From Desulfobacteraceae bacterium (lineage in GTDB: Bacteria > Desulfobacterota > Desulfobacteria > Desulfobacterales > Desulfosalsimonadaceae): a stretch of 64,000 nt of DNA. Position numbers and translations under genes: made by a program. Shown piece after piece: positions 29,601 through 48,025 of this stretch. Numbering within the stretch: the stretch's first letter is position 1; each line of letters starts with the position of its first letter. The stretch lies in assembly GCA_014237465.1 (NCBI GenBank), contig JABZFM010000033.1, positions 1 through 64,000 of the forward strand. Reading direction: 5' to 3'. The notes under the pieces were generated by a model. It saw only the letters and a program-made list of their open reading frames with translations, was not told the origin of the DNA and searched no databases.

Positions 29601-30496
29601 CTTTCGCTTTGATACATTTGATGGGAATCTGATGAGAAGTGTCCTTGCTGACGTCTCAATTCTGAAACCTTTAATTTTGTTTCCTGTAAAACACTTATTA
29701 TCTCATCATATTCATCTATCGGTATGACCAAAAAATTTCTATCTCGAAAGTCCTGAATTCTGTATTTAAAATCACTTAAAACAATTTCAAACTCTTCATC
29801 ACTGGACTGTGGTTCTTTTTCAGGTTTTTTCAAAAAAATCAGGGGGGATTGTCTGAATTCTCCAAAAATATTTATAATATGATCATCAGCTTCAATGAGC
29901 CGTGGATCATCAAAACTCGTTCCGATAAACAGAACTGTGTTAATAGCGGATTGGAGGTTAAGCCAATCAACAAATCCTTTGTGCTTAGTTTTGTAACGTG
30001 AATAATCTGCTGATGTTATAACTATACTTGACGGAGAATCCAAGTCGCCATGTAATTTGACTATGGTTGTTTTGGTTGGATCTATGCTTGGAATATCTTC
30101 ATCTCGCGTGATAACAACTGGTGGAATATCATGCTTTCGAAAATTATCTTCTATTAGATGATCATAGTTAGTTGTAACAATGAGGTTGCTTCCTAATGAG
30201 ATAATCTCTTCATGCAATGCTGTGCCTGTTGCAGGGCCAAGTCTTAGTTTTTCTGTAATTGCTTCACAGAGTTTTTGTTTTCCGATCTCTTGTTCCAGAA
30301 TGGTAGCTAATTTAATAGAATCAGTAATGTTTGTTTTTATTTGATACTTGTCCAATAAATCCTTTATTAACCCATTCCATGACGGCAACCCAGCATCCAT
30401 TGAGCAACCAGCACCAATGAATAGGATAAGTCTATTCTTAATTATTTCGTCTGCTAAAATGGCGACAGCTTTTTGTTTTGCATTAATATCATTCAT
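23609..30496 (-). CDS. Giant SIR2-TPR-PIN-like protein (candidate antiphage effector)
   Basis: A 2295-residue cytoplasmic protein. Residues about 1-260 form a SIR2-family domain: FIGAGCSMDAG (28-36, NAD-binding), TTNYDHL (108-114), KLHGD with the catalytic-type His149, and FIGTSFDDPR (190-199). SIR2 domains in defence proteins degrade NAD+. Residues about 340-1000 are helical TPR-like repeats (EYFKKAENAY, AKQLLESSHKR). A PIN-like region follows (about 1050-1400): KEIVIDYHALITLHRLG, later HLLTDDRMMQM and GTDALLKNLYE. The last 900 residues are helical with no family I know. GAGG precedes the ATG at 30496. The sequence is markedly AT-rich compared with flanking genes. It overlaps the ParA-like gene, so the pair forms one unit. 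No enzymatic activity is proven. Confidence 0.75.
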   Translation of the reverse strand: MNDINAKQKAVAILADEIIKNRLILFIGAGCSMDAGLPSWNGLIKDLLDKYQIKTNITDSIKLATILEQEIGKQKLCEAITEKLRLGPATGTALHEEIISLGSNLIVTTNYDHLIEDNFRKHDIPPVVITRDEDIPSIDPTKTTIVKLHGDLDSPSSIVITSADYSRYKTKHKGFVDWLNLQSAINTVLFIGTSFDDPRLIEADDHIINIFGEFRQSPLIFLKKPEKEPQSSDEEFEIVLSDFKYRIQDFRDRNFLVIPIDEYDEIISVLQETKLKVSELRRQQGHFSSDSHQMYQSERLEILEKERRDLLDEKTLKLSEEVNGKGRRATFAVMAEKSIGLITHLEQAKDSISPEAKLEGFLTLADTYLNSGIEKDIQKAHEYFKKAENAYQESQHKEKWKERFLRVHAKLLFVDKEIDNAIEILNNSNDPKTIAFRLAIQIDGKKLNQAYRFIKEQKKFHAAWACEAIAVLIEKDKIQEAEKKYSVILNEFLDCEKKGDLPQSDFKDDYFLEKLNFLMAHAIYEKAIQHNDKTDSTTIFPGQLTEKGLGLCKKTLSHIDRLFERASRKNIKDNYIAASATYIEMHASYLSGDYGRADKSAKALITVTPIKREVIRCILSRFQNFDDKYLKKVIDVLSRDYPNASWAWLKKAFLSAYHFKKYDDTWDFLVKATDLASSDQEKEEVALHVIEIGLNIKRADETLGLIDNLLKIDNPVREFCHALYLFDSEKFDEAKQKLNDLLNVELAPSVKSEVEIVLADIEMKEERWGEAKQLLESSHKRIPNAFALKKLLVVNARLQNDADALEIARQLEMLDALDKQGLHIKAQAARNFGQYKISETCWKKLIKDYGNKAHYAYGLAEVMFMLDEPSGKIINILAEYIQCDEKMEPACLSLAATIYQRDQEYKNAFLLIDKCWPKIQNNYQLLMQHMELGYRVDKEKKAHESMIRLEALRKEGKIPDETFIRMDLDQVKDFFKQEHEVSKKLNDQYYIGQIPRSLLCDRIKSYPLYLDWAIRSQPLDIESINEEHRIEFTTYSTNGFRVKNNRIVRIDATHDKEIVIDYHALITLHRLGLLDKLSVYYNKIYYPKTLEFIWTNEQNRFLHHQASEEKAYKSLSNRVVSGQIREVTAPALEKGKKDSLSKRDLRIANLEKIHLVDAYIKKEELDEYPEVKIFRLTQIADWLYARGKIRENRYRELQGPLTGEAESIKENVHQQLDDASRLIISKSSLKQLEKYELTPILLEMGVKIYLEKESSKEITSAVMNIDFGIEVGEWHRELAKYVKSSKAFVPFQAELPEEVKTDVSSQHGEVILSTINYSEQNNLHLLTDDRMMQMVQGKKWQGKQFGTDALLKNLYEKNIISIDQYANCFLKLCRWRYRFLTPDVDVLVYFAKEYQKHPLGKPLMDLIAYCRHCMNDRGLFLGPEKVSPPIPMGVKFYMNWIECWINFLTEIWQDDEFYINALNSITKKILRQAMPEPPSNLKDEIKKNIPFVEEKKIIWELLSKASFSAKKVLKLNGLFNIVFALYQYDEKKIIKTLDEFFQFIEGLDNIENKIVARIISRITLAIHGEQESYIPPPMLHKYYEKYGIIQIDDKNSEPPGTQKIDVLELIKKRKNLPADGPLIRIEKPDQKFVLAPHEIIQAVDSKIRITALNDILKEEKTTQPTTDRLLKLSKKLGSGNPVIWRVAAEEATDLILKDFKYALSLFPDAMSTVPLNQEWTQKAWQGLINPDLNSVIDEAPEFILKKWTEKHLFEKLEKDLGKLDVSTFEEKIHIENVLDWYLLQLGYVPFSPPFNAWNVINKYPIFFKAKDLEQKIEKWLQKAPAKYDPIAIIVALDVILNIRKSTTPDKNDFQYFTSPDFYKFLNSNLRKLFIEGPEIGDAETDFESSYFYKLWDIRHTLAEHYVRYMELNSDKLKQINNDKKVLLAWWLAREVTNTLSKTAAQYIANKNDMIKWFEDILSDLKNFLRLPNLIKYTMEATKRPVPINIFFTLHGKNLLASATTTLIMPPTKESQTNNCFEGMKNPEIALSAEIRDSILEHVIFQALFGYGQIQKVSDSSISLLWNTPACISGLLFLREYYGEAIKYIGKEKTNYLEIAEISSQKDFLKNILPNLPKELAEKKATSILLILGGLYIYFCTHGKLPDEANIFINDNSISSKMDQIDPLNKHICLILIMEIVRQSRTWGEFNFAQAIEKILLEIDYLSLIEYATEIINGLVLIIIQGADYRLLNPVVTLGKTKKKYRKALSDAKRSLSFFFPYLPGECREIARKILNDLDDIPEITDDLSGGGQNVD

Positions 30497-35729: not shown

Positions 35730-36017
35730 ATGAAATCACCTGGAATTAAAATGTTGCCCGGAATCCCCGGAGGCATATTAAAGGTTTCGAGTGTGTTTAT
35801 CATCCTCATAGCCGCTGTGATTTTTGCCGTGCAGACGGGCGTGATAGAGACCTCCCGGGCGCAAGGCCAATCTTCTGATATCGCCATCGGCGATATCATC
35901 GCCGGCGAGCTGGATGATACCGATAAGAAACTCAATTCCGGTCAATTTTGCGATAAATACGATTTTATGGGCAATGTGGGGGAGAAGGTCCTTATTAATC
36001 TTTCCGCCTTTGCCTGA
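35730..36017 (+). pseudogene. Truncated secreted protein with PPC-like domain start
   Basis: A 95-codon frame with a good ribosome binding site (AGGAGG 9 bases upstream) and a long signal/anchor segment (VSSVFIILIAAVIFAVQTG). It continues with GDIIAGELDDTDKKL and CDKYDFMGNVGEKVLINLSAF, which fits the beginning of a bacterial pre-peptidase C-terminal (PPC) domain, normally about 70-100 residues long. It stops abruptly at TGA (36015-36017) in mid-domain. I regard it as the 5' part of a broken gene, although a short functional protein cannot be excluded. It is the first frame behind the consensus promoter and lies 130 bases upstream of the peptide gene. Confidence 0.55.
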
Positions 36018-36147
36018 GGCAAAACTTTTATTTTTTACCGAATTTACGCAATATTCAGCTCCCCTTTTTGTGCATCATATCGAAAAACCGAATGGGCGCT
36101 GGTTTTAATAACTCATTCTAACATCAATTAAAGCAGGAGCAGAAATC

Positions 36148-36321
36148 ATGGAAAAAAAGGAAACTAATGTAAACAACGAGATGGAAGAATCAAAGAAAAG
36201 GCCGGTTCCCATATACGAACCACCAAAGATCATAACCTATACCAGCGAGGAGATCTTAGAGGAGATTGGCCCGGCCCATGCCTGCTCTCCGTTTGATCCC
36301 GGATGCGGAGTCCTGGGGTAA
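36148..36321 (+). CDS. RiPP precursor-like peptide (57 residues)
   Basis: A small gene with GGAG 8 bases upstream of its ATG. The product is a 57-residue peptide. A charged, Glu/Lys-rich leader carries a Pro-Tyr stretch (PVPIYEPPKI) and a helix-like TSEEILEEIGPA. The last residues, after GPAHA, are CSPFDPGCGVLG, with two Cys (46 and 53). Such leader-plus-short-Cys-tail peptides directly before a PqqD-radical SAM-SPASM gene are typical substrates of peptide-modifying radical SAM enzymes. I infer that the C-terminal about 12-15 residues are the modified core; the cross-link (thioether or other) and the cleavage site are unknown. Confidence 0.7.
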   Translation: MEKKETNVNNEMEESKKRPVPIYEPPKIITYTSEEILEEIGPAHACSPFDPGCGVLG

Positions 36322-36404
36322 ACAAACGGCCGCGGCTTTGCAATGAGGCAAATATAGGTTCGATCCTTGACAGGGCAGCGTATCCGCACGGAGAGAAGAA
36401 TATC

Positions 36405-37787
36405 ATGCCTATGCCATGTTCATTCTTTACATATTCCCCTCGTCTTTCTGAGGAAGTGAAGCAAAAGCGCCATGTCCTTTTTCATGCTAATAAATCCGAA
36501 TGGCTGGTGGTCAATGATACGGGACTGGAGATTGCCAAACACCTGGATAGAGGGCCGCCGAATGCTGATGTTGCCGGACGCCTGGTTTCAAAATACAGAA
36601 TATCAGCTGAGGAAGCAGAACATGATGTCTTATCTGTATCGAAACAACTGGACCGGCAGCATTTTTTAAATGGAAAAAAAACCAAACGCAGCGCAAGATA
36701 TCCCACCCTTAATTCAGCCTATCTTCATCTGACCAGCCGTTGCAATCTATCCTGTCCCCACTGTTACGTCTCCTCCTCTAATGATAATACCAAGAAGGAC
36801 CTTCCAGCCACGATTGTTCTCAAACTGATTGATGAGCTGGCAAATAATGGCGGTCAAACTGTAACCCTCAGCGGAGGCGAACCCCTACTTCACCCGGCAA
36901 TCAAAAAGATTCTCAAATATGCTGCGCCAAAGGTTGGGATTAGACTTTTAAGCAATGGGACCCTGATTGACAAAGAGTGGGCAGCCTTTTTGGCTGACAT
37001 GGATATCTTCATCCAGATCAGCGTGGATGGCTCCCAGAAGGAAATTCATGACCTTATCAGAGGTGAAGGCAGTTTCGAGAACACCCTCAGGGGAGTGGAA
37101 TGTCTTCAAGAAGCAGGCCTGGGGGAGAGAATCAATTTTTCGACCACCGTCATGAACCAGAACATTCATGACTTAAAAGAGATTATTTCTTTAGCAAAAG
37201 GCTTTAAAGTCCCTTTGGTTCGTTTTCTCCCGCTTCACAGGATGGGAAGGGCTAAAAAGGAATGGGATTCCATAGGTTCGGGAATAACCATAAGCGATTA
37301 CGAACAATTTTATCAATATACCTCCGAGTTACGGGCAGAATGGAGATCCTCCATTGAGATCAGTTGCGGATTAAGCGGTTTTCTCCTCAAGATACCCGAG
37401 GCGTTTTCAGAGGATGATATATGGTGCCCGCTGGGTAAACAGTTAGTAGTGGGGGCCAACGGAGATACGTTCCCTTGTGATTTGATGATGAGTGATGAAT
37501 TTAAGGTGGGGAATATATTTCATGACAGCCTCACAAAGATGATTCAATCGGACAAAATGAAAATGCTTTGTCAGGCACTCTCAGACCGCCGGGTCAAGAT
37601 CAAAAAATGTGCAGCATGTAACTGGCGAAACCTGTGCCAGGCCGGGTGTATGGGTCAGGCCTTAGAACATAAAAGAACCCTATGGGATACAGACGATTTT
37701 TGTGATTATCGAAAAAGGGTTTATGAGGAAGCGTTTGATAAGATTCTGGGATTGGAATTTGGGCATTATGACGAAAAAAGTGGATAA
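36405..37787 (+). CDS. Peptide-modifying radical SAM/SPASM enzyme with N-terminal PqqD-like domain
   Basis: A 460-residue maturase. Residues about 1-100 look like a PqqD-type peptide-binding (RRE) domain (SEWLVVNDTGLEIAKHL). The radical SAM cluster motif is CNLSCPHC (Cys113, 117, 120), followed by SGGEPLLHP. The C-terminal SPASM region (from about residue 340) has WCPLG, FPCDL, CAACNWRNLCQAGC and a final DFC, enough Cys for two auxiliary 4Fe-4S clusters. It should modify the 57-residue peptide encoded 84 bases upstream. I chose ATG 36405 (GGAGAG upstream); the frame is open to 36303, overlapping the peptide gene. Confidence 0.88.
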   Translation: MPMPCSFFTYSPRLSEEVKQKRHVLFHANKSEWLVVNDTGLEIAKHLDRGPPNADVAGRLVSKYRISAEEAEHDVLSVSKQLDRQHFLNGKKTKRSARYPTLNSAYLHLTSRCNLSCPHCYVSSSNDNTKKDLPATIVLKLIDELANNGGQTVTLSGGEPLLHPAIKKILKYAAPKVGIRLLSNGTLIDKEWAAFLADMDIFIQISVDGSQKEIHDLIRGEGSFENTLRGVECLQEAGLGERINFSTTVMNQNIHDLKEIISLAKGFKVPLVRFLPLHRMGRAKKEWDSIGSGITISDYEQFYQYTSELRAEWRSSIEISCGLSGFLLKIPEAFSEDDIWCPLGKQLVVGANGDTFPCDLMMSDEFKVGNIFHDSLTKMIQSDKMKMLCQALSDRRVKIKKCAACNWRNLCQAGCMGQALEHKRTLWDTDDFCDYRKRVYEEAFDKILGLEFGHYDEKSG

Positions 37788-37812
37788 AGCGTAAGATTTT
37801 TGGAGGAAAAAC

Positions 37813-38949
37813 TTGACAATCATCAATCGCGCATCGCCAACAGAAAATTGTAAATTATTTTACCAAATCCTGGGTGTGGGCGTTTTTCTGGAATCCGATT
37901 CAACCGAGTTCCTCAACATGTTTGACAGGGATTATTCCCGGTTTCGGGCACCATCCATCAATGGGAAGAAAGAATTATCCGTTTCAGTCCAATTAAAGCG
38001 AAAAGATGGGTTTGCGCGCATAAACAATGAGATTGTTTCGTTAGAAGATCACCCCGCGCCGGGCGCTTGCGCCCATCAGATTGTCCTAAGGCGATTGTTT
38101 GAAAAGATAAGCGATTTCATACTGCTTCATGCGGGCGTGGTTGTAAGTGATGGCCAGGCCGTGATTCTGGCCGGTCCTCCGGGGGTGGGCAAGACCACAC
38201 TGGTGCTGAAACTCCTTGAAAGCGGGTTTGGTTTTTTTTCGGATGACTTCTGCCCAATCCACAAGGAAACAAGACTTGTATATCCCTTTCCCCGGAGTCT
38301 GTGGATATCAACTCCACAACGACCTGTAACCTGCAACCCGAGCGGTGCTGCTGCCCGAGGGAAAAAGGCGCTGATCAGCCCCGACAAACTCCATTTGCCT
38401 GTTGCTGCAACGCCATGCAAGGCCAGGTGCCTGATATGTCTTGATCCGGGGGGTGATGTTGATCCGTTTATCGAGCTGCAGATTGGTCTGAGGCGGGGGA
38501 TTGAGGAGGCATTTCTAAACGATTTGCGGCAACTACAATCGTCAATCGCAAGACCTCAACCGGTTATCGTGGAAAGGCTTAATATTAAATTTTCCGAATG
38601 GCGGATCAGATATCCAGCGGGCCAAGGGATTACACAGAACATTAAGGAACTTCTGAACAAGTACCGACAGCACATCTGGAACGTTTACCGGGTGGATACT
38701 GTTTGTCCGGATTTTACAGGAGAGCCGACTTTGTCTCGCATCCCCAATCATGAAGCCGGTTTTCGTCTTCTTGGGGATTTAAAACAAGCACTCCCATTTA
38801 AAACGGAAATGGGATCTTCTCACGATTCACCGGGAAGTCTCTTTATGGAATTAAATGCGCTTTTAGAAGGGGTTCCGTGTTATCGCCTGTCAGTGGGCAG
38901 GCTTGGGGTCATGATTGATTTGGTGCTGGAGGTTGCGAACCAGGTATAA
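37813..38949 (+). CDS. HPr kinase-like P-loop protein of a RiPP cassette
   Basis: A 378-residue protein with the HprK-type P-loop 'AGPPGVGKTTL' (near residue 120) and the following 'GFGFFSDDFCPI' that contacts the phosphate acceptor region. It starts with TTG at 37813 after a perfect GGAGG 6 bases upstream. HprK-like proteins occur in lasso-peptide and radical SAM peptide cassettes (for example the SynChlorMet type), where some phosphorylate the precursor peptide. Here it follows the maturase by 25 bases, so the 57-residue peptide is the likely partner. Residues after about 260 show no family I recognise. Confidence 0.75.
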   Translation: MTIINRASPTENCKLFYQILGVGVFLESDSTEFLNMFDRDYSRFRAPSINGKKELSVSVQLKRKDGFARINNEIVSLEDHPAPGACAHQIVLRRLFEKISDFILLHAGVVVSDGQAVILAGPPGVGKTTLVLKLLESGFGFFSDDFCPIHKETRLVYPFPRSLWISTPQRPVTCNPSGAAARGKKALISPDKLHLPVAATPCKARCLICLDPGGDVDPFIELQIGLRRGIEEAFLNDLRQLQSSIARPQPVIVERLNIKFSEWRIRYPAGQGITQNIKELLNKYRQHIWNVYRVDTVCPDFTGEPTLSRIPNHEAGFRLLGDLKQALPFKTEMGSSHDSPGSLFMELNALLEGVPCYRLSVGRLGVMIDLVLEVANQV

Positions 38950-38963
38950 AGGAAGGACAGGTT

Positions 38964-39689
38964 ATGAATAAACGACTCGGCATTTTTGTAATGGTCTTGG
39001 CAGTTCTTTCTTTGCCAGCGCATCTTGTGGCAGGGCCTGTTGATGATTACCTGAAGGTGGTGAGCGCTGATAGTGACGGGCTTATCCTGGAAATTCAGGT
39101 TCCGGCACCTGATATTGAGGCGGTATGGGAAGGTGGCGTCCTTTATCACAGGATGACTGTTCCCGGGCTTGGAACTACCGCTGATGTGGGAAGACCTCAG
39201 TTGCCGCTGAAGGGTGCCCTTATCGGGGTGCCTGGTACAGATAAGCCCGACATAGAGGTCTTGGCGTCTGACTCTTTGACCCTCCCGGACTATAACATCT
39301 ATCCGGTACCAAGACCTGTTTTAGTTGATGAAGATGATCGGGAAAAGCGGCTGACATATGAGTTTGTTAAGGATACAGAGGCATATCATATTGATGCCTT
39401 TGTCCCTTCAAGGATTGCCGAGATTGGTTTTACAGGTTTTATGAGGGACCAGCGGGTGGCGCGAATGAAGCTCTTCCCCTTCCAGTTTAATCCAATAACC
39501 GGCGAACTCCGATACCATTACAGGATTACGGTGAGGGTGAATTTCAATGGCCAACCCCAAACCGCTGCAACGTATCTCATGTCTGTCACAGGGAAAAAAG
39601 CAGAAAGACCTTCTGCAAAAGGAAGAAACGGTGCCTATGAGGGACTGCTCAAGGGGCTGCTCTTAAATTACGACCAGATAAGGCAATAG
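38964..39689 (+). CDS. Gingipain-type (C25) propeptide protein
   Basis: A 241-residue exported protein: signal peptide (RLGIFVMVLAVLSLPAHLVAG), then a beta-rich region with 'GRPQLPLKGALIGVPG' and, towards the end, FPFQFNPITGELRYHYRITVRV. This is the pattern of the C25 propeptide that precedes and inhibits gingipain-like peptidases. Normally it is fused to the protease, but here it ends (NYDQIRQ) before the separate peptidase gene 125 bases downstream. It may work in trans as chaperone/inhibitor, or the fusion was split. Only 14 bases separate it from the HprK-like gene. Confidence 0.75.
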   Translation: MNKRLGIFVMVLAVLSLPAHLVAGPVDDYLKVVSADSDGLILEIQVPAPDIEAVWEGGVLYHRMTVPGLGTTADVGRPQLPLKGALIGVPGTDKPDIEVLASDSLTLPDYNIYPVPRPVLVDEDDREKRLTYEFVKDTEAYHIDAFVPSRIAEIGFTGFMRDQRVARMKLFPFQFNPITGELRYHYRITVRVNFNGQPQTAATYLMSVTGKKAERPSAKGRNGAYEGLLKGLLLNYDQIRQ

Positions 39690-39700
39690 GGCATCAAAAA

Positions 39701-39737
39701 TGCCTAAAATGCCTAAAGTGATCTAAGGTGCCTAAAG
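39701..39737 (+). repeat. Short degenerate tandem repeat TGCCTAAAG
   Basis: Copies at 39701, 39710 and 39729, with a diverged one (TGATCTAAGG) between. It lies in the gap between the propeptide and peptidase genes. This type of heptamer-to-nonamer slippage repeat is common between genes and has no known function. Confidence 0.6.
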
Positions 39738-39814
39738 TTAAAATCAATCAGTCCATAATTTCAGTTCACTTTAATCACTTTAAACGTCAGCTCACTTATA
39801 TTGGAAAATTACTT

Positions 39815-42800
39815 ATGAAGAAGCATATCTCCATTATATTCTTCTTAGCCATTCTGTGCATGCTCCCGGTGAAGGCCGCAGCGTCTGCTGCTTTGAAGAT
39901 CTCTGTAGACACGGATGGAATCTACCATATCTCATTCAGTGATCTCCAACATGCAGGATACAACCCTGATACTATCGACCCTCAAACCATAATGATTACC
40001 AATAAGGGTAAAGAGATCCCTGTTTATGTCTATGGTGAAGAAGACGGCAGCTTTGATCCCATTGACTACATAGAGTTCTACGGTACCGCCATCTCCAGGG
40101 GGTCATCCCGATTTGAGTTTACCGCATCCAATGTATATTGGCTAACAAGCGGAGGCCTTCAAGGCCTCAGAATGATGGCAAAGGACGGGACCCCTTCCGG
40201 TGCGTTTACTGTCCCGACCTCCTTTGGTGCCGGCACTCACGTAGAAGCGGATAACTATTATTGGCAGACCATACCAAATGGGGAGGGCAAGGACCACTGG
40301 TTCTGGGGGGACAGGATCAATGCACTCTCATCCAACAGCTATACAATTGTCTTGAATAACATCTATTCCTCTGCCTTTGATGCCGATGTCAGGGTGAACC
40401 TTCAGGGAAGAACAGGCACAGGCACCTCCCCGGACCACCATACAAGGATATATCTAAACGGTTCCCTGATCGATGACCAGCACTGGGATGGGCAGGTACA
40501 GTTTCTCCATGAGGTAACGGTACCCCATTCCTATCTGGTCAATGGGACAAATACCATTACCCTGAACTCGGTGGGGGATACCGGGTCATCGGTAGACACT
40601 ATCCACATGGACTGGATTGAGATAGATTATTATGACACTTTTGTGGCGGAAAATAATTCTCTTGATTTCACGGCAACAGGCACTGGAACCTTTGAATTTA
40701 AGATATCAGGCTTTACCTCTGGCACAGTGGCGGTCTTTGACATCACAGCTTCCAATAACGTGAGGCGGGTTATTAATAACACCACCCAGCAGATTGGTCC
40801 CACCTATACCACCCGCTTTGAGGACAGCCTGACAGGTTCCGCCCGCTATCTTGCTCTCAGCGCTTCACAGAAAAAGACACCTGCTGACATCAAAATGGAT
40901 ACACCATCGAGTCTTAAAAAAACCTCAAACGGGGCTGATTATATCATAATCACATACGATGGATTCTATAACAATATCCTGCCCCTGGCCGGATTTTACC
41001 AGAATAAGGGGCTTCGGGTCATAACCGCAAAGGCGACCGACATCTACGATGAATTCAGCTACGGCATATTTGATCCCCGGGCCATAAAGGACTTTTTAAG
41101 CTATGCCTATCATAGCTGGGTTTCGCCTGCCCCCCTCTACGTCCTCCTCGTGGGGGATGCAAGCATGGACCAGAAGGACAACTTCGGAATGGGTAATATG
41201 AACTATGTGCCCACCCACTGGTTTGACACATATTCTTTGGGCCAGACCCCGGGTGACAACTGGTTTGTCTGTGTAAGTGGTGCGGACATCCTGCCTGATA
41301 TGTTTATCGGGCGGCTGTCGGTCCGGGCAGGGTCAGAGGTGGATAATGTAGTCGCTAAGATTATCGGGTATCAGTCCACCCAGGCATCAGGCTGGAATAC
41401 CAATGCCCTGTTTGTGGCGGATAATGATATGATTGAGTTTGAACAGATATCTGATACCCTTGCTGCTAATTACCTGCCGGCCGGTTATACCTCAAAGAAA
41501 GTATATATGAGTCAATATTCTTCAGCAAGTGCTGCCAAGAGCGCGATCAAGACAAACATCAATAACGGCGCCCTTATCACCAACTATACAGGCCATGGCG
41601 CTGTGGACAACTGGGCCGGCGAGAATATGTTTGTAACGTCTGATGTCTCCACCCTGAGTAATTCAGGCAAGCTTACCTTTGTGACCATCCTTAACTGCCT
41701 TAATGGATTCTTTCCCATGCCGCTTACTCCCTGGAAGCCTTCAATCGACCGGACATGCCTGGCAGAGGGATTCTTATTGGAGCCCAATAATGGTTCTATT
41801 GCTGTTTTTGCGCCCACAGGCCTGGGATACCCCTGGGAACACAGCATGCTCGCCCAGGAGCTGTTTAGCGCAATCTTTAATGAGGGGAAATCAATCCTTG
41901 GAGAGGCAACCACCCAGGCGAAAATAGGCGCTTTCTCCAATGGTGTGTCCGGCGATATTGTCGAAACCTTTGTGCTACTTGGCGATCCTGCAACAGGTTT
42001 AAATACGGGTTTAAATATTTCTGATCCACCCAACGGAACCATAGATACACCAACAGGAGATGTGACCCTGGGCAAAGGCCAGTCAGTATACTTTACCGGA
42101 ACAGGAACAGACCCGGATGGGACTGTAGCTTCGTATTTATGGAATTTTGATGGGGGTGCGCTGAATTCTACAGAGGAAGATCCAGGGGATGTCACCTTTA
42201 ACGCCCCTGATATATATACGATCACTTTCACTGTAACCGATAACGATGGTTTAAGTGACCCGACGCCTGCCACCAGAACCATTACTGTTTTAAATATTTC
42301 TGATCCACCCAATGGAACCATAGATACACCAATAGGGGATGTGACCCTGGGCAAAGGCCAGTCAGTACACTTTACCGGAACAGGAACAGACACAAATGGG
42401 ACGGTAGCTTCGTACATATGGAATTTTGATGGCGGTGCGCTGAATTCTACTAAGGAAGATCCGGGGGATGTCACCTTTAACGCCCCTGGTATATATACCA
42501 TCACTTTCACTGTAACCGATAATGATGGTTTAACTGACCCGACGCCTGATACCAGAACCATTACTGTAAATGCACTTCCCTCTAATCCGCCAACCGCGGA
42601 TGCCGGCGGTCCGTATTCAGGTATTGAAGGCCAGTCAATAACTTTTGACGGATCAGGCTCAACAGATAGTGACGGGAACATTGTCTTTTATGATTGGGAT
42701 TTTGGGGATGCCGGCTTTGCTGCAGCTGGTATCAGTCTCACCCGCATTTACTTTCAGCAGGGAGCATATACGGTGACTTTAACAGTTACCGATCAAGATG

Positions 42801-43684
42801 GTGCCACTGATACGGCATCCACCATAGCCACCGTCTCAGACACTATCCCTATTGCGGGTTTCAGTGGTTCTCCAACCATCGGCGTTGCCCCCCTGACAGT
42901 TGTTTTTACAGACAGTTCTACAGCCTATGATGGTATATCTTCCTGGACATGGGGTTTCGGGGATGGGGGAACAAGTGACCTCCAGGCCCCTGACCATACC
43001 TACAACACAGAAGGGGTTTACACAGTATACCTTACTGTTACCGACAGTGACGGAAGTTCAGATACGCTTACCAGGAGTAAATATATCACGGTGCTTGGTG
43101 ATACGGATTCTGATGGAGACGGTATTTCCGATAATGAAGAAGGTGCAGGCGATCTGGATAATGACGGAACACCGGATTGCCTGGATGCAGATACTGCCAG
43201 GATTTCTGCTGCGGCCGGCGGGGGTGAGATCAGCCTGGACATCGACGAAGGTGCTAACAAAGGCGCCAGGTTCAGCAGCGTAGAGGTCATGGGGGATGAT
43301 GACCCGAGCCTATCGCAGGATGGAAAACCTGATGTAAATTTCAAACACGGTCTGGTTAAATTCACCATTCATGGCCTGGCATCAGGTGATTCTCTGAAGC
43401 TGACCATTACTTATTCTGCGGGTATTCCCTTTAATGCCGAATACTGGAAATACGATCCCGGCAATGGCTGGTATCAAATAGCCTTTGGAAGTAATGACGG
43501 AGATAATGTAATAACCATCACCCTGATTGATGGCGGAACAGGGGATGGCGATGAAACTGCCAACGGGACCATATCGGATCCTGGCGGGATCGGTATTCCA
43601 AGAAGCGGCGACGGTGATAGTGACGGAAGTTCTGGCGGCGGCGGTGGTGGTTGCTTTATTACCACAGCCGCACATGGATTTTAG
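39815..43684 (+). CDS. Large C25 (gingipain-like) peptidase with PKD repeats, anchor lost
   Basis: A 1289-residue secreted cysteine protease. Signal peptide KKHISIIFFLAILCMLPVKAAA; the peptidase core has catalytic His594 (TGHGAVDNW) and Cys628 (TILNCLNGF). Four PKD-type beta-sandwich repeats follow (residues about 735-1090; motifs such as YLWNFDGG and YTITFTVTDNDG), then Asp-rich calcium repeats (DTDSDGDGISDNEEG), a choice-of-anchor U-like domain and a Gly-rich GGGGGGCFITTAAHGF end. The frame stops there, in the middle of a CFI-box C-terminal signal. I chose ATG 39815, right at the signal peptide, over 39728. The PKD part includes a recent 279-base duplication. The likely role is processing of secreted proteins or peptides, possibly products of this cluster. 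Confidence 0.85.
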   Translation: MKKHISIIFFLAILCMLPVKAAASAALKISVDTDGIYHISFSDLQHAGYNPDTIDPQTIMITNKGKEIPVYVYGEEDGSFDPIDYIEFYGTAISRGSSRFEFTASNVYWLTSGGLQGLRMMAKDGTPSGAFTVPTSFGAGTHVEADNYYWQTIPNGEGKDHWFWGDRINALSSNSYTIVLNNIYSSAFDADVRVNLQGRTGTGTSPDHHTRIYLNGSLIDDQHWDGQVQFLHEVTVPHSYLVNGTNTITLNSVGDTGSSVDTIHMDWIEIDYYDTFVAENNSLDFTATGTGTFEFKISGFTSGTVAVFDITASNNVRRVINNTTQQIGPTYTTRFEDSLTGSARYLALSASQKKTPADIKMDTPSSLKKTSNGADYIIITYDGFYNNILPLAGFYQNKGLRVITAKATDIYDEFSYGIFDPRAIKDFLSYAYHSWVSPAPLYVLLVGDASMDQKDNFGMGNMNYVPTHWFDTYSLGQTPGDNWFVCVSGADILPDMFIGRLSVRAGSEVDNVVAKIIGYQSTQASGWNTNALFVADNDMIEFEQISDTLAANYLPAGYTSKKVYMSQYSSASAAKSAIKTNINNGALITNYTGHGAVDNWAGENMFVTSDVSTLSNSGKLTFVTILNCLNGFFPMPLTPWKPSIDRTCLAEGFLLEPNNGSIAVFAPTGLGYPWEHSMLAQELFSAIFNEGKSILGEATTQAKIGAFSNGVSGDIVETFVLLGDPATGLNTGLNISDPPNGTIDTPTGDVTLGKGQSVYFTGTGTDPDGTVASYLWNFDGGALNSTEEDPGDVTFNAPDIYTITFTVTDNDGLSDPTPATRTITVLNISDPPNGTIDTPIGDVTLGKGQSVHFTGTGTDTNGTVASYIWNFDGGALNSTKEDPGDVTFNAPGIYTITFTVTDNDGLTDPTPDTRTITVNALPSNPPTADAGGPYSGIEGQSITFDGSGSTDSDGNIVFYDWDFGDAGFAAAGISLTRIYFQQGAYTVTLTVTDQDGATDTASTIATVSDTIPIAGFSGSPTIGVAPLTVVFTDSSTAYDGISSWTWGFGDGGTSDLQAPDHTYNTEGVYTVYLTVTDSDGSSDTLTRSKYITVLGDTDSDGDGISDNEEGAGDLDNDGTPDCLDADTARISAAAGGGEISLDIDEGANKGARFSSVEVMGDDDPSLSQDGKPDVNFKHGLVKFTIHGLASGDSLKLTITYSAGIPFNAEYWKYDPGNGWYQIAFGSNDGDNVITITLIDGGTGDGDETANGTISDPGGIGIPRSGDGDSDGSSGGGGGGCFITTAAHGF
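42011..42568 (+). repeat. 279-base direct duplication of a PKD domain
   Basis: Units 42011-42289 and 42290-42568 are in frame (93 codons each) and nearly identical apart from scattered point changes. The duplication added one PKD-like domain to the C25 peptidase. Confidence 0.9.
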
Positions 43685-43768
43685 GTTGCCCCTTGTGTGA
43701 AAACCTTGCTGGTATTCCTGAGCTAACTTACAGGAATTTAGGGAACGATAAGTAAGAGGAAAGATTAG
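43682..43768 (+). pseudogene. Decayed C-terminal membrane anchor of the C25 peptidase
   Basis: Reading on in the peptidase frame past TAG (43682) gives VAPCVKTLLVFLS, TAA (43724), LTGI, TAG (43739), GTISKRKD, then TAG (43766). This aligns with the intact anchor of the C39-like protein two genes on, whose end reads NLHVNILMVFLPLLTGIW followed by a basic tail. There are no frameshifts, only stops: the transmembrane sorting tail was lost by nonsense changes. Confidence 0.75.
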
Positions 43769-43776
43769 AAGCCATT

Positions 43777-44001
43777 TCAAAACCTGTTTAATGAAAGCAT
43801 AATAATACCAACATGAAAGAACGCTCGATACATTTGAATGTGACGTTCATGCCTGACAATCAGGCGTCTAAAATTCCCAAGCCATGCAAACGTGCGTTCA
43901 ACAATCCATCTTTTATGATAGCGCCTGAGTTTTCTGCCATCCTGCGTTTTAGGCTTCTTTCTGTTTTTGCGATGTGGAACAATCAAGTCGATCTTAAACT
44001 C
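43777..44001 (-). pseudogene. IS5-family transposase C-terminal remnant
   Basis: A reverse frame of 75 codons without a proper start reads PHRKNRKKPKTQDGR and then RRYHKRWIVERTFAWLGNF followed by RRLIVRHER. This is the C-terminal part of IS5/IS427-type DDE transposases, including the catalytic Glu in VERTFAWL. The DD part is missing upstream, where a stop codon intervenes, so it is inactive. It sits between the anchor-less peptidase and the C39-like gene, and its arrival may relate to the decay there. Confidence 0.8.
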
Positions 44002-44087
44002 TTAATGTAAGAAAGGATAAAATGGGCAAGAAAAATAGGTGATTGCCACTATTTGTTCAATTCGAAAGGGCGAAAGGAAAAGAAAAG

Positions 44088-45575
44088 ATGAAAAAGCAAA
44101 AAAAAGAATTGAAGAGATATTTACAGCTTGCAGTGATAATTCTCACAGTTACTTTATCAAGTTTTGGGGCTGACCAAAAAGCTCAAGCTGCCGATATCGA
44201 CATCACCGTCACGAAGTTATACCAAAACGATTACCCACAAAAATTAGATAATTCCAATGAAACAATCGCTGAGTCTGGTTGTACGCTGACTGCCCATACA
44301 ATGGGGATTAATCATGCTCTAGAAGCGCAAGGGCTTCATAAAAAGAACCCTGATGGGTCTCAGGGGCCTATCCTTTCCTACACACCAGACGAGTTGAACA
44401 CTTTACTAAACAACTATCGCTACCAACAAAAAATCTATAAAAAAGATGCGCAGGGCAACTACGTTAAAGATGAAAGTGGTCATTATGTCGTAGAGAGGGT
44501 GAAAACTAAAAATGGCTGGTCAGTGACGATTGGCGATGATGGCAAACCCATCGGTTCAGACACAACCTTAAATATGGGTGCGCTGTTAAAAGCAGTTAAG
44601 GCGGACACAAAAAACAGATCTTTCGAGGGTGTGGAGCTTCAGGGCAAAAAATACCACGCGCCAGGATGGTGTGGAATTCCTGACAATATAGGTAGTGGAG
44701 GCGTTATCCTTGATGAAAACTACAAGTATATCCTTGATGAATTGGAGGCGGGTAGGCCGGTGGTCGTACGCACTTTTGATGATAAACATAGCGTACTTGT
44801 GAAGAGCTTTAAGCAGGCAGAAGGCCAGCCCGAAGGAAAAGGTAGATATGACATCGCTGACCCTTGGAAGAAAGCAGACGGCACTTCAAGAGAGTGGTTG
44901 GATGACAAAGACTACAAAAATAAGATATGGAACTGGGGTTTAATCGTCTTCCAAAAAGGAGGTCTCCATGACCCATACGAGGTACCAAGTGATTACTGGA
45001 TCGATACAGAATACCTTTACGATCCAAATATGAATCCAGATCAATATGGCCCTCAGATATTTGTACTAAGTTTCTCATACTCACTAACTGTAATCACCCT
45101 CATCTCCTTCACAGCCACAGAACAAGATGGAAAAGTACTCCTGGAGTGGGAAACCGCTTCCGAGATCGACAACACAGGTTTTCACATCTGGCGGAGTGAG
45201 ACAGAGGATGGGGAGTACATCAAGATCACTGATCATCTAATCCCGGCTGAAGGCGGAGCGACATTTGGTGTATCATATTCCTATGAAGATTCTGAAGTGC
45301 TCTCCGGCCAGACCTATTATTACAAGTTAGAGGATATTGATAATAATGGTGTGAGCACCTTTCATAAACCCACCAATGGTATACAGGCTGTCTTTGTTGG
45401 GCCAGATGGCGGAACGAATGGTGGAAGTGACGGTGCCTGCTTTATTGACATTGCCGCACATGGATATTCCTTTAACCTCCATGTGAATATCTTGATGGTA
45501 TTTCTTCCCTTACTTACAGGAATTTGGGTTGCCATCAGGAGGAGGGCAAAAATCAGAAAACGGATTCTCAAATGA
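44088..45575 (+). CDS. Secreted C39-like cysteine peptidase-fold protein with CFI-box anchor
   Basis: A 495-residue exported protein. The signal peptide ends near QKAQA. The domain from about residue 35 fits the C39-like/papain-like group: LYQNDYP, then ESGCTLTAHTM with the nucleophile-type Cys, and HSVLVKSF for the His. A fibronectin-like domain follows (FTATEQDGKVLLEWETAS, then GFHIWRSE). The C-terminus has a Gly/Ser spacer, the box ACFIDIAAHGY, a membrane segment and an Arg/Lys-rich tail, which is an intact sorting/anchoring signal. The start at 44088 is chosen directly before the signal peptide. It overlaps the following S26 peptidase gene by 4 bases. Confidence 0.75.
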   Translation: MKKQKKELKRYLQLAVIILTVTLSSFGADQKAQAADIDITVTKLYQNDYPQKLDNSNETIAESGCTLTAHTMGINHALEAQGLHKKNPDGSQGPILSYTPDELNTLLNNYRYQQKIYKKDAQGNYVKDESGHYVVERVKTKNGWSVTIGDDGKPIGSDTTLNMGALLKAVKADTKNRSFEGVELQGKKYHAPGWCGIPDNIGSGGVILDENYKYILDELEAGRPVVVRTFDDKHSVLVKSFKQAEGQPEGKGRYDIADPWKKADGTSREWLDDKDYKNKIWNWGLIVFQKGGLHDPYEVPSDYWIDTEYLYDPNMNPDQYGPQIFVLSFSYSLTVITLISFTATEQDGKVLLEWETASEIDNTGFHIWRSETEDGEYIKITDHLIPAEGGATFGVSYSYEDSEVLSGQTYYYKLEDIDNNGVSTFHKPTNGIQAVFVGPDGGTNGGSDGACFIDIAAHGYSFNLHVNILMVFLPLLTGIWVAIRRRAKIRKRILK

Positions 45576-46114
45576 AACCTGTCACATCCCACATTACCCC
45601 TGCCCTTGAGACCTGGAAGGCAACTGAACGAGAGATATCCCTGAAGGTGTGGGGGGGCAGCATGGCCCCTTTGATCAGGGCTGGAGACTACATCTCTTTG
45701 CGATTGACCCAGTCAGACAACCTCAGGCCGGGAGATGTTGTGGCCTTCTTGCAGAATGAAGACATTACGGTTCACCGGCTTATCAAAAAAAAGAAGGTGA
45801 ATGGTCAAAGATGGTTTTGCCAGAAAGGGGATAATCTTTTAGGCTGGGCCTGGATACCGGAAGATAAAGTGTTGGGAAGGGTGGAATCAATCCAGAACGC
45901 GGATGGGATACAGGACATGACCGGTCGGCCCTGGGTTTGGTTAAACCCGATCATGGGATTTGCCGCATCGTTCTGGATAACCTTTGTGGAAAAGGCGCAA
46001 GCATTGAAGAAGCATATTTTAGGAGATCGTCGGATGCCAATCTTACTCGGTTTAAACAAAGGGATTTTTAAGATTATCAACAGAATCTATTATTATTTGG
46101 GGGGTAAATTATGA
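45572..46114 (+). CDS. S26 family (SipW-type) signal peptidase
   Basis: A 180-residue S26 peptidase. Ser30 in GGSMAPLI is the nucleophile; the partner is probably His67 in ITVHRLI (the Ser-His dyad of SipW/ER-type enzymes). The conserved QKGDN motif follows, and a hydrophobic C-terminal segment (NPIMGFAASFWITFV) may anchor it. It starts within the stop of the C39-like gene (ATGA) and is itself coupled to the PqqD gene, so it is a dedicated peptidase of this cluster, possibly for the CFI-box proteins or the modified peptide. Small S26 proteins are frequent in PqqD/NTP_transf_5 cassettes. Confidence 0.85.
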   Translation: MKPVTSHITPALETWKATEREISLKVWGGSMAPLIRAGDYISLRLTQSDNLRPGDVVAFLQNEDITVHRLIKKKKVNGQRWFCQKGDNLLGWAWIPEDKVLGRVESIQNADGIQDMTGRPWVWLNPIMGFAASFWITFVEKAQALKKHILGDRRMPILLGLNKGIFKIINRIYYYLGGKL

Positions 46115-46365
46115 CCGTAAAGATTTTAGCCAAAGAATTGGAATCCGAGCTGATGCTTCATGATACTGAAAAGGACGAGGTTCACGTCCTCAACGCCACT
46201 GCCCGGCTTATCTACAAACTATGCCGGGAAGGCAAAGATTTGACCGAAATAACGCAGGAAGTCAGAAGACGTTTTCAGTTGGGAGGGGACCAGGCTATGC
46301 AGAGGGACGTTCAAGGGTGTATTGAGGAACTCAGAAAAAAAGGGCTGTTGCCGATTGACGATTGA
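46111..46365 (+). CDS. Stand-alone PqqD family peptide chaperone
   Basis: An 84-residue PqqD-type protein: LMLHDTEKDEVHVLNATARLI then YKLCREGKDLTEI and a C-terminal helix with LRKKGLL. PqqD proteins bind the leader of a precursor peptide and present it to a radical SAM enzyme. Its ATG overlaps the S26 stop (ATGA). The maturase upstream already has its own PqqD-like domain, so this one probably served a second maturase, of which only the SPASM part remains in the next gene. Confidence 0.88.
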   Translation: MTVKILAKELESELMLHDTEKDEVHVLNATARLIYKLCREGKDLTEITQEVRRRFQLGGDQAMQRDVQGCIEELRKKGLLPIDD

Positions 46366-46417
46366 AGATCACCAATAAAAACCCAAAACCCTTAATTAAC
46401 CATAAGACACATAAGAA

Positions 46418-46843
46418 ATGATGATGGTTAAAAAGATGTCACCGTTTGAGGACATTGTCACAGGTCTTTTTGACTATCCGCCCAGGCTTTGCTGGATGAG
46501 AGGCACTTGCGCAATGTTTATATGCATCGAACCCGATGGTGATGTGTGGCCATGTTGTGACCGCACACTTCCTTCTGAAACCTATCGCTGGGGCAATGTC
46601 CTGGATAAGGATTTATCTACTGCTATTAAGAGTCGCAACGCGCATGTTTTCCGTGAAGCGGATAAAAAGCGACAATCTTTCTGCATGCGCTGTGAATGGG
46701 CTTTTTTGTGTCGGGGCGGTTGTGTCTATCATCGAATCATTCAATCAGATGCTGCGGATGCGCCGGATCCTTTTTGCCCGGCATATCAAAAGATATTTGC
46801 CCATATCGCGGGTCGAGTAGATGAGATTCTCTCTTGGGTGTAA
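46418..46843 (+). CDS. SPASM-domain-only protein (lost radical SAM core)
   Basis: A 141-residue protein with SPASM Cys ligands: CWMRGTCAMFICIEPDGDVWPCC, CMRCEWAFLCRGGC and a terminal FCPAY. The radical SAM TIM-barrel with CxxxCxxC is absent, and the gap to the PqqD gene is only 52 bases. The open frame starts at three consecutive ATGs. Either it is the 3' remnant of a deleted PqqD-partner maturase or a free-standing auxiliary-cluster protein. The intact Cys set argues that it was functional recently. Confidence 0.7.
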   Translation: MMMVKKMSPFEDIVTGLFDYPPRLCWMRGTCAMFICIEPDGDVWPCCDRTLPSETYRWGNVLDKDLSTAIKSRNAHVFREADKKRQSFCMRCEWAFLCRGGCVYHRIIQSDAADAPDPFCPAYQKIFAHIAGRVDEILSWV

Positions 46844-46846
46844 GCT

Positions 46847-48025
46847 ATGAATAAAAAATTGGAAGGCGAGTTGTTGCTTTATTGCCTTGGTATTGGGACA
46901 GACAAAATAAAACCCGCCAGGCTTGAACAGTTGTCCACCTCTGAATGGGAAGAAATTATTCAGCAATCGGACCGCAATGGCGTTGCGCCTTTGCTATATC
47001 TGCGTTTAAAGGCACTCGATCAATGCATAACTATTCCGGGCACAACTATTCCGAATAGCGTTTTGCAGCGATTGAGAAAAAAATATGTTTGTAATGCGTG
47101 GAAGAATAAACGATTATACCATGAACTTTCAAAAGTACTAAGTTTGTTTCAGAACGACGGCATTCCAGTCATTGTTCTGAAGGGAGCAGCCTTGGCAGAA
47201 TTAGTTTTTCAAAACATCGCTTTAAGACCAATGGGTGATGTTGATCTGATAGTCAAAAGCAAGGACTGGAGTAAGATTGACACAATATTATTGCAATTGG
47301 GATTCTCAAATGTAACACCACCTTTAAGATCGAAACGCCATATACAGTGGATTCAGCATATAAAACACATGAGCAAGGTCACTCTCTATGAGATCCATCC
47401 TGAAATATACGAGCTTCAAAATCATAATCCTTGGTTAACTGCCTCCCCTGCAACAATAGCCGCGACCGATACGCTCATATTAGGATCAGAAGACTTTTTA
47501 TTACATCTTTGTCTTCATATTGATCGTCATCTTCGCGAGGGCATCACCAAGCTGATTTGGTGGTTTGACATTGCAATGGGAATAAAACATTATCGAAAAG
47601 AACTCAATTGGGATTATGTGATACAAATTGCCAAGAAACATAAGGTCGAAGGATCTGTCCATCGCATTTTGTATGTGATTAATGAATGGTTTGACGGACA
47701 GGTCCCGGCAAATGTTCTCAACCGGCTTAAAGACGATAGCATTCCCCTTTCTTTTTTAGATGTGCTACAACAGGTGCCACTTCAAAACCGAGAATTTGAT
47801 TTATTTTTAACAGATATTTCAAGAATTCCTTCAATTCATGATAAAATTTACTACGGTTTTAAGACCTTCTTTCCATGTAGAGAGTTTATAATACAGACTT
47901 ACTCAGTAACACGACCCAACTTAGTCTATTTCTATTATTTCATCCATATAAGTATCATTGCCATAAAAGCCTTCTATCAGTTGCCGAGGTATCTTTTTAA
48001 CAAATATGTTTCTCTAAGGGCCTGA
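46847..48025 (+). CDS. NTP_transf_5 nucleotidyltransferase family protein
   Basis: A 392-residue protein of the family found in lasso-peptide and PqqD cassettes. The nucleotidyltransferase signature is VIVLKGAALAELVF then RPMGDVDLIV (GDVD metal-binding Asp pair). The remaining part is helical (HLCLHIDRHLREG, RILYVINEWFDG). It probably transfers a nucleotide or sugar-nucleotide moiety to the peptide product or to a carrier. It starts 3 bases after the SPASM gene, so it belongs to the same operon. Confidence 0.8.
   Translation: MNKKLEGELLLYCLGIGTDKIKPARLEQLSTSEWEEIIQQSDRNGVAPLLYLRLKALDQCITIPGTTIPNSVLQRLRKKYVCNAWKNKRLYHELSKVLSLFQNDGIPVIVLKGAALAELVFQNIALRPMGDVDLIVKSKDWSKIDTILLQLGFSNVTPPLRSKRHIQWIQHIKHMSKVTLYEIHPEIYELQNHNPWLTASPATIAATDTLILGSEDFLLHLCLHIDRHLREGITKLIWWFDIAMGIKHYRKELNWDYVIQIAKKHKVEGSVHRILYVINEWFDGQVPANVLNRLKDDSIPLSFLDVLQQVPLQNREFDLFLTDISRIPSIHDKIYYGFKTFFPCREFIIQTYSVTRPNLVYFYYFIHISIIAIKAFYQLPRYLFNKYVSLRA

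Follow-up and report, generated by a model that had tools for sequence, protein, structure and literature searches.

A gene cassette of a Desulfobacteraceae bacterium appears to make and modify a tiny peptide beside a secreted protease of the C25 family, and we tentatively read it, at somewhat less than an even chance for the statement as a whole, as a dedicated peptide-maturation system coupled to this PorU-like protease and to a set of secreted proteins with a common C-terminal domain (CTD) that resembles fibronectin type III (FnIII) domains. The cassette lies in a stretch of 64,000 nucleotides, here called the window (GenBank assembly GCA_014237465.1, contig JABZFM010000033.1, positions 1 to 64,000 of the forward strand). 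We are highly confident that the unit is real and is concerned with C25 and CTD cargo; at the sequence level we see its parts and the conservation of their linkage, precursor genes paired with CTD genes, purifying selection on the precursors, and relationships to C25/PorU and HprK. Natural products and cofactors are the known output of the machinery for ribosomally synthesized and post-translationally modified peptides (RiPPs), and PorU-type sortases are known as parts of one secretion system of Bacteroidota. In some Desulfobacterota and related bacteria, such a set of genes is conserved beside the protease gene, and near-copies of the peptide gene also adjoin genes for CTD-bearing secreted proteins, which points to an undescribed kind of surface-protein processing or tagging. 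If this is true, RiPPs gain a role in protein sorting or anchoring, and PorU-like processing takes place outside the type IX secretion system (T9SS); the CTD, a domain without a family model, and two families of precursors can be searched for directly.

A first-pass annotation, made from the letters of the window alone, had proposed a RiPP-type cluster, and every gene it named is an open reading frame (ORF) on the + strand in the ORF list of the window (Table 1). A short conserved precursor adjoining a modification enzyme, together with PqqD and a leader motif, bears the proposal out, and the 57-residue Cys-containing peptide gene is present upstream of the PqqD-radical SAM-SPASM fusion as described. 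Four aligned type A precursors (the type found in the window) have invariant Y, PP, I, YTS, IL, GPA, ACSP and C, the leader motif YxxPx[IVL] occurs in the window precursor and in nearly all aligned precursors, and an example of the tail is QTCSPSPCPTYQ. The window precursor matches no Pfam or NCBIfam family at E<=0.1. The annotation had suggested looking for conserved precursors next to homologous maturases: a profile built from the window precursor and three relatives and searched in 395 sampled genomes of the phylum matched in 11 of them, the window's own included, with up to nine matches per genome, and relatives carry the cassette.

Many of the type A precursor copies are not close to a maturase and adjoin genes for varied proteins that end in one domain of about 105 residues (consensus LxSFTA...EIDNAGFNIYR...YYYKLEDIDLNG.STxHGPVSATPR). 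Their make-up varies: one has FG-GAP and MopE-like repeats that score over cut-off, another matches CXXCH weakly, and several have no family match. The CTD region has no Pfam match at E<=1 in the six proteins scanned, and NCBIfam gives nothing close to a cut-off, the best E being 0.0044 (16 of 350 bits); a weak match is to a PorU N-terminal NCBIfam model (12.5 of 40 bits), and an AlphaFold2 model of the window CTD (predicted local distance difference test, pLDDT, 72.9) resembles FnIII domains. Three genomes, which we label G328, G130 and G368 (L and C labels below denote loci and contigs), hold 84 CTD matches (E<=1e-10) and 22 precursor matches, and 18 of these 22 precursors share their strand with a CTD gene some 4–325 bp away, with 14 located 3' and four 5' of it; the distances are approximate because gene ends were estimated from open-frame lengths. 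Two of the 18 flank one CTD gene. By genome, 8/9, 9/9 and 1/4 precursors are CTD-adjacent in G328, G130 and G368, and with a chance expectation of about 0.25–0.35% per precursor the binomial probabilities are 1e-20, 4e-24 and only 0.014. The remaining four comprise two in C25 cassettes, one 1.4 kb from a CTD gene and one beside a PqqD gene only. Adjacency was computed for 22 of 30 precursor matches; among the others, four stand in C25 cassettes within one stretch (G093, G135, G348, G162:C132), the G264 cassette is spread over two contigs, the G191 contig ends after HprK, one G162 precursor (C95) lies beside a masked stretch, and the G241 precursor adjoins a CTD gene (L104).

The same association appears across the phylum. 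The CTD was found in 10 of the 11 precursor-A genomes against 15 of 395 overall (p 1.4e-15; 9/10 and p 3e-14 with the window's genome left out; at most 12 candidates scored per genome) and C25 in 9/11 against 38/395 (p 1.3e-8; 8/10 and p 1e-7 likewise), p-values that treat related genomes as independent, although many are metagenome-assembled genomes (MAGs), several share a family and six of the 11 precursor genomes belong to one family (f64). In the window's genome, the sole CTD match at E<=1e-25 (12 of 19 candidates scored) is the gene at 44043-45575, which we propose as candidate cargo; the C39-like label that the first-pass annotation had given it finds no Pfam or NCBIfam support at E<=0.1. 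That annotation had also seen C25 as odd RiPP machinery for a free peptide, a picture that gives way here, as the wider data tie the type A precursor to CTD-bearing secreted proteins and a PorU-like protease.

Codon comparisons indicate that the precursors are under purifying selection, old copies being held to one protein sequence beside differing proteins. The nine copies of G328 differ at codon positions 1/2/3 by 0.048/0.068/0.471, and their 60-bp flanks are 27-30% identical, that is, unrelated; eight of the nine G130 copies (the stop-bearing copy omitted) give 0.169/0.106/0.502, with flanks at 27-32%. A protein sequence that is kept while third positions and flanks have diverged is the pattern expected of a stoichiometric partner. 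Recent copying, considered as the cause of the near-identical orphan precursors, is ruled out by the wide third-position divergence and the unrelated flanks. In one G130 copy (L122, near 4210) the codon following GPA is TAG, and this copy is probably decayed for that reason.

The precursor sequence also varies with the maturase. In all nine cassettes with a type A radical SAM gene, the third residue after GPA is Cys (GPAxxC), and the three type A cassettes without one (G348, G162, G191) have M, Y or V instead; in this small group of related genomes the association gives a Fisher p of 0.0045, or 0.027 when G130 and G241 are counted as contrary. Those two genomes, which have Cys precursors yet no type A radical SAM at E<=1e-40, count against the link, as does G162, where a second, Cys-containing precursor borders a masked stretch and a different, B12-binding radical SAM gene adjoins PqqD (L113:10870-12378). 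In G191 a gene for a secreted-looking protein lies between precursor and kinase (L116:752-2117), with a 29-bp direct repeat at its ends. The last five residues of precursor and inserted gene product are the same there; mimicry of a cargo tail by the precursor tail was considered, and the likeness is explained by the repeat (90%), which extends past both stop codons.

The type A HprK gene was found in 13 genomes (the window, L025, L050, L051, L052, L092, L094, L100, L103, L112, L113, L114/L115 and L116; the G264 cassette, split over L114 and L115, is counted once). Twelve of the 13 have C25 or its propeptide in the same stretch, and the thirteenth, L116, ends 160 bp past HprK; the first-pass view of C25 as a genuine cassette member is upheld, and its linkage to the cassette is no accident. 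A precursor is near the kinase in 12 of the 13 genomes (none was found in the L052 stretch), and three lack the type A radical SAM gene. Gene order varies among the loci: G004, of the same genus as the window's bacterium, has precursor, fused propeptide-C25, PqqD, HprK, S26 and PqqD-radical SAM in an order differing from that of the window. A scan of a species-level genome collection for the maturase, not exhaustive as it used two short patterns, gave five confirmed loci, four at 51-65% identity to the window maturase and a weak fifth in a Bacteroidetes MAG at 29%. All four relatives carry the type A kinase with C25, or with its propeptide at a contig end; they include a Myxococcota MAG and two MAGs labelled only 'Proteobacteria bacterium' and 'bacterium', and one of the four, L053, has the same genes as the G004 locus. 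The phylum search added type A genomes G135, G368, G328, G093, G264, G348, G162 and G191, and in the class of G328 the type A kinase occurs in 7 of 17 genomes, all seven already among the 13. In G368 a second radical SAM protein of 301 residues lies between the kinase and the PqqD-radical SAM gene of the type A cassette (L094:6998-7903). G130 has a group made up of a PqqD, an HprK-like protein of shorter length and an NTP_transf_5 protein (L136:4537-6972), in a stretch where neither radical SAM nor C25 was matched; this group may serve the orphan precursors of that genome.

A second set, which we call type B, is present in the window's genome on contig C62 and consists of a C25 of 1931 residues, a different precursor, PqqD, radical SAM, HprK and S26. 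C25, PqqD and radical SAM occur together in this way at 12 loci (11 genomes), with precursor and HprK at 11 of them (the contig of the twelfth ends within the radical SAM gene) and S26 at nine. Maturases and kinases of the two types show only distant likeness. Type B precursors have in common K-Y-x-[KR]-P, an LAADEVLAxGCK-like stretch, two more Cys and a terminal Ser, which stands last in all ten aligned precursors (nine ending Gly-Ser) and in L107, hence in 11/11 at C25 loci, and also in L110, L108 and L061, three relatives whose genomes gave no C25 match; two type B precursors that were scanned match no NCBIfam model. In 10 of the 12 type B C25 chains a CTD-like FnIII region is part of the same chain, the other two being cut by contig ends. 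Related sets at L110:6603-14988 and L108 have precursors ending in Gly-Ser, and L110 additionally carries HprK, S26 and NTP_transf_5, as well as another radical SAM protein that gives a weak match to B12-binding.

The C25 family extends beyond both cassettes. In 60 relatives, 25 C25 neighbourhoods (the window, L025, L026, L027, L028 and 20 more) include 13 with a cassette, two of type A and 11 of type B, a biased rate, as these stretches cover 26 of 47 C25 matches picked to favour C25 outside a class of about 840 residues; ten chains of 739-904 residues and eleven weak or partial matches make up the 21 left out. The type B locus L107 came from the phylum search and lies beyond these 25. The 840-residue class (L028, L044, L048, L049; L044 is truncated) lacks the peptide cassette and comes after a protein whose related FnIII region ends in CFI and a short tail, forming a C25-cargo pair without a peptide. 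Cassette labels are grouped on a C25 tree more than in shuffles. A single origin of the linkage was rejected on this quick tree, which sets types A and B mostly apart, with unlinked C25s within both parts and several weak branches.

The separate C25 propeptide and C25 peptidase of the first-pass annotation are both confirmed by Pfam. The best PDB chain for the peptidase is PorU 6za2 (E 1.6e-13), then gingipain R (2.4e-10) and Lys-gingipain (6e-9), and GHG and a downstream Cys, presumably the catalytic His and Cys, are kept in 20 of 21 C25 chains checked, L107 having no visible GHG. Propeptide and C25 form one ORF at L025, L051, L052, L092, L094, L100, L103, L112, L113 and L114; among type A loci showing both, the window alone has them as two genes. 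Over 127 bp, the 3' DNA of the window C25 gene shares 72% identity (E 2e-15) with the 3' end of 44043-45575, a gene that continues into a transmembrane (TM) helix and a basic tail; the C25 reading frame stops at GGGGGGCFITTAAHGF, and its tail thus looks cut short by a stop. Just after C25, at 43777-43986, an IS5-like transposase remnant is visible by eye. For the kinase, the HprK-like identity assigned in the first pass is supported by its motif (H106, G121, G126-K127-T128, D144-D145, with D145 replaced by E in G004) and by a fold match, since Foldseek with its AlphaFold2 model (pLDDT 76.3) gives PEPCK first (E 1.9e-6) and also HprK/P (5.6e-4), at TM-scores of 0.2-0.4 by query length. PEPCK and HprK are arms of one superfamily.

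Each part has a counterpart in described systems. PorU of T9SS, according to PMC8545088, couples a C25 enzyme by transpeptidation to many secreted proteins with one C-terminal domain; the C25 family, the PDB match 6za2, GHG and Cys, and a set of secreted proteins with a common C-terminal beta-sandwich domain are shared, whereas here the CTD is FnIII-like and reaches no NCBIfam cut-off, and a peptide-maturation cassette is present. The gingipains (gingipain R, Lys-gingipain) share the C25 catalytic domain and Propeptide_C25 but score lower than PorU, and here the gene lies within a peptide cassette and the window propeptide is separate. Phosphorylated lasso clusters (paeninodin PadeK, pseudomycoidin PsmK/PsmN, BsfK), as described in PMC10368454 and PMC9266682, share an HprK-like kinase with a His, GK[ST], Asp motif, a PqqD element, the YxxPxL leader motif and a nucleotidyltransferase. 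The BsfK motif H-G-G-G-K-S-D-D agrees with that of the window kinase, PqqD-like BsfB1 accelerates BsfK and the leader carries YxxPxL (PMC10368454); a C-terminal Ser is the target of phosphorylation by PsmK, and a hexose on it requires PsmN, which carries a nucleotidyltransferase annotation (PMC9266682). The lasso likeness claimed in the first pass holds for the kinase, PqqD, the YxxPxI leader motif and NTP_transf_5 and goes no further: here there are radical SAM, C25 and CTD cargo, type A cassette precursors lack a terminal Ser, and no lasso cyclase or B2 protease was found among ten window proteins scanned with Pfam and NCBIfam, a scan that covered only those proteins of the genome. The SynChlorMet, GeoRSP and HPr-rel-A systems of NCBIfam likewise share PqqD, radical SAM/SPASM and partly HprK-like components, but the models, ScmD, ScmE and ScmF of SynChlorMet among them, remain far below cut-off (ScmE 125/400, GeoRSP 108/400, HprK_rel_A 55/200 bits), contrary to the SynChlorMet-like parts noted earlier; scores under the model cut-offs and missing parts exclude membership of these and of the lasso families. 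The first-pass annotation knew of no described system with C25 machinery, and our literature searches agree, as the open-licence papers listed in them gave no description of a system joining C25, radical SAM, RiPP and CTD sorting; NCBIfam of June 2026 and Pfam hold no family model matched by the scanned precursors or CTD regions. On genomics alone, the unit joining peptide maturation, a PorU-like protease and a set of CTD cargo is not one that can be placed, and it appears to be new, with parts of known kinds.

In the mechanism that we propose, PqqD would bind the YxxPx[IVL] leader, the radical SAM enzyme, where present, would modify the conserved Cys, and the HprK-like kinase would phosphorylate the peptide, in type B probably at the invariant terminal Ser, with NTP_transf_5 sometimes acting afterwards. 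The C-terminal Ser is the natural guess for type B because of the PsmK/PsmN precedent (PMC9266682); it was rejected as a rule for type A, where the last residue of the cassette precursors is G, N, P, D, V or Q. The S26 peptidase would remove the leader, perhaps by cutting behind GPA in type A and behind AxG in type B, motifs that both have small residues at -1 and -3, and the peptide would exit the cytoplasm. C25 would then cut the cargo at the CTD and hand the acyl group to the new amino terminus of the peptide, as PorU hands cargo to anionic lipopolysaccharide (A-LPS), a step that in this formulation falls well short of an even chance. A peptide with a fresh amino terminus after leader removal would be a suitable nucleophile, and one copy for every cargo gene would keep its supply matched to the cargo. 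The full outcome would be protein tagging, with a modified mini-peptide ligated by the PorU-like C25 to the C-termini of many secreted proteins in place of their FnIII-like sorting domain, and with phosphate or sugar anchoring them on the surface, which we consider unlikely. For the peptide itself we infer cross-linking, phosphorylation and glycosylation, as the first-pass annotation did.

Several observations weigh against a peptide system coupled to C25 and CTD proteins, the chemistry of which is predicted. The precursors of the window and of G004 have G and N as their last residues, which excludes C-terminal Ser phosphorylation there, and no exporter was found among the ten window proteins scanned. 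Scores with family models are low: C25 reaches 282 bits with the NCBIfam PorU model (cut-off 420), and the kinase, HprK-like only weakly by this measure, stays below cut-off, with 54.8 bits against 200 for TIGR04352 and 21.4 against 33.3 for Hpr_kinase_C. Most CTD genes have no neighbouring precursor (18 precursors vs 84 CTD matches in the three genomes). In G130 (nine precursor matches, 93% complete) and G241 (one, 89% complete) the Cys precursors are CTD-linked, yet neither C25 (E<=1e-10) nor a type A radical SAM (E<=1e-40) was found, and a type A kinase of full extent was missing as well. Only three of seven type B precursor genomes in the 395-genome sample have C25 (p 0.02), so C25 is no fixed part of the wider type B family; type B-like precursor, PqqD and radical SAM occur without C25 in G133 (L110) and G339 (L108). 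Finally, 12 of the 25 C25 stretches in relatives have no cassette.

The mature peptide could instead act unjoined to cargo, as an inhibitor, chaperone or cofactor of C25 or of the FnIII-domain proteins, made in step with them. Precursor-CTD pairing and co-occurrence suit any stoichiometric partner, and L112 and L113, without a type A radical SAM, keep precursor, PqqD, HprK, C25 and S26, so the peptide can dispense with radical SAM. Such a role explains the genomic data nearly as well as transpeptidation; however, the type A C25 already has its own propeptide, and a full post-translational machinery seems heavy for a plain inhibitor, and we rate this role a serious contender though on balance a doubtful one. 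An ordinary secreted RiPP, kin of the phosphorylated lasso-type clusters, with C25 as external processing protease and the CTD-adjacent orphans as extra substrates, would fit the resemblance of kinase, PqqD, leader motif and NTP_transf_5 to the bsf/psm clusters and the type B-like sets without C25 (L110, L108). Orphan precursors distant from one maturase are known in other RiPPs, a precedent for those seen here. This explanation is burdened by the lack of an exporter or lasso cyclase among the ten scanned window proteins and leaves unexplained why 18 of 22 precursors lie beside genes with one C-terminal domain; we think it quite unlikely, and a plain antibiotic-like secreted RiPP is not defended, as it leaves the CTD pairing unexplained.

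That C25 and the cassette are neighbours by chance, or through shared mobility in surface-protein gene regions, would agree with the differing gene order of type A loci, the IS-like remnant in the window and the C25 stretches without a cassette. Against this stand the 12 loci with C25 counted for each of two distant cassette types, spread over several families and reaching, in the case of type A, a Myxococcota MAG, as well as a C25 tree that groups labels beyond shuffles; these locus counts rule chance out in substance, and we consider it highly improbable.

Table 1. Genes of the type A cassette in the window and the evidence for each
Feature	Position	Strand	Evidence or sequence features
Precursor peptide, 57 residues	36148..36321	+	YEPPKI leader motif, then TSEEILEEIGPA, then Cys-containing tail HACSPFDPGCGVLG
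PqqD-radical SAM-SPASM maturase	36405..37787	+	All three Pfam domains over cut-off
HprK/PEPCK-fold kinase-like protein, TTG start	37813..38949	+	Kinase motif and AlphaFold2 model fold match
Secreted C25 propeptide	38964..39689	+	Pfam Propeptide_C25 81 bits
Secreted PorU-like C25 peptidase with PKD repeats, likely ATG 39815, end GGGGGGCFITTAAHGF	39728..43684	+	PF01364 (Peptidase_C25) 293 bits
Secreted protein; FnIII-like C-terminal domain at 45084-45407, followed by CFI motif, TM helix and basic tail	44043..45575	+	CTD profile E 2.3e-48
S26 (Ser/His type) peptidase, candidate leader peptidase	45524..46114	+	TIGR02228 52.3 bits, cut-off 51.85
Stand-alone PqqD (RiPP recognition element)	46111..46365	+	Pfam PqqD 43 bits
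SPASM-only protein	46418..46843	+	SPASM 34.9 bits
NTP_transf_5 protein, optional tailoring enzyme	46847..48025	+	Pfam 166 bits

The remaining features of the cassette largely agree with the first-pass annotation. All domains of the maturase fusion are confirmed by Pfam (PqqD 34.3 bits, cut-off 23.4; Radical_SAM 101 bits; SPASM), its frame being open from 36303 with an ATG at 36405. The S26 peptidase (with GGSMAP and VHR motifs), the second PqqD and the NTP_transf_5 protein have family matches that are over cut-off or strong; a stand-alone PqqD also occurs at L025, L051, L100, L103, L112, L113 and L115, and NTP_transf_5 in three of 14 type A stretches (the window, L051 weakly, and L094). The SPASM protein is present as annotated, although it aligns solely to the C-terminal part of sulfatase maturases and has no counterpart in the maps of relatives' cassettes, and it is probably a remnant or accessory outside the core. 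The propeptide, C25 and 44043-45575 products have an apparent signal peptide at their start (by eye). The start of the cluster had been placed at 35730, which belongs to another short secreted-looking ORF (35730-36017, 95 residues) that, by eye, resembles the start of a pre-peptidase C-terminal-type domain with an early stop. Farther upstream, 23609-30496 encodes a 2295-residue protein with a SIR2-like domain, adjoined on the same strand by a ParA-like ATPase gene (the latter by eye), which together may form a defence or STAND-like system.

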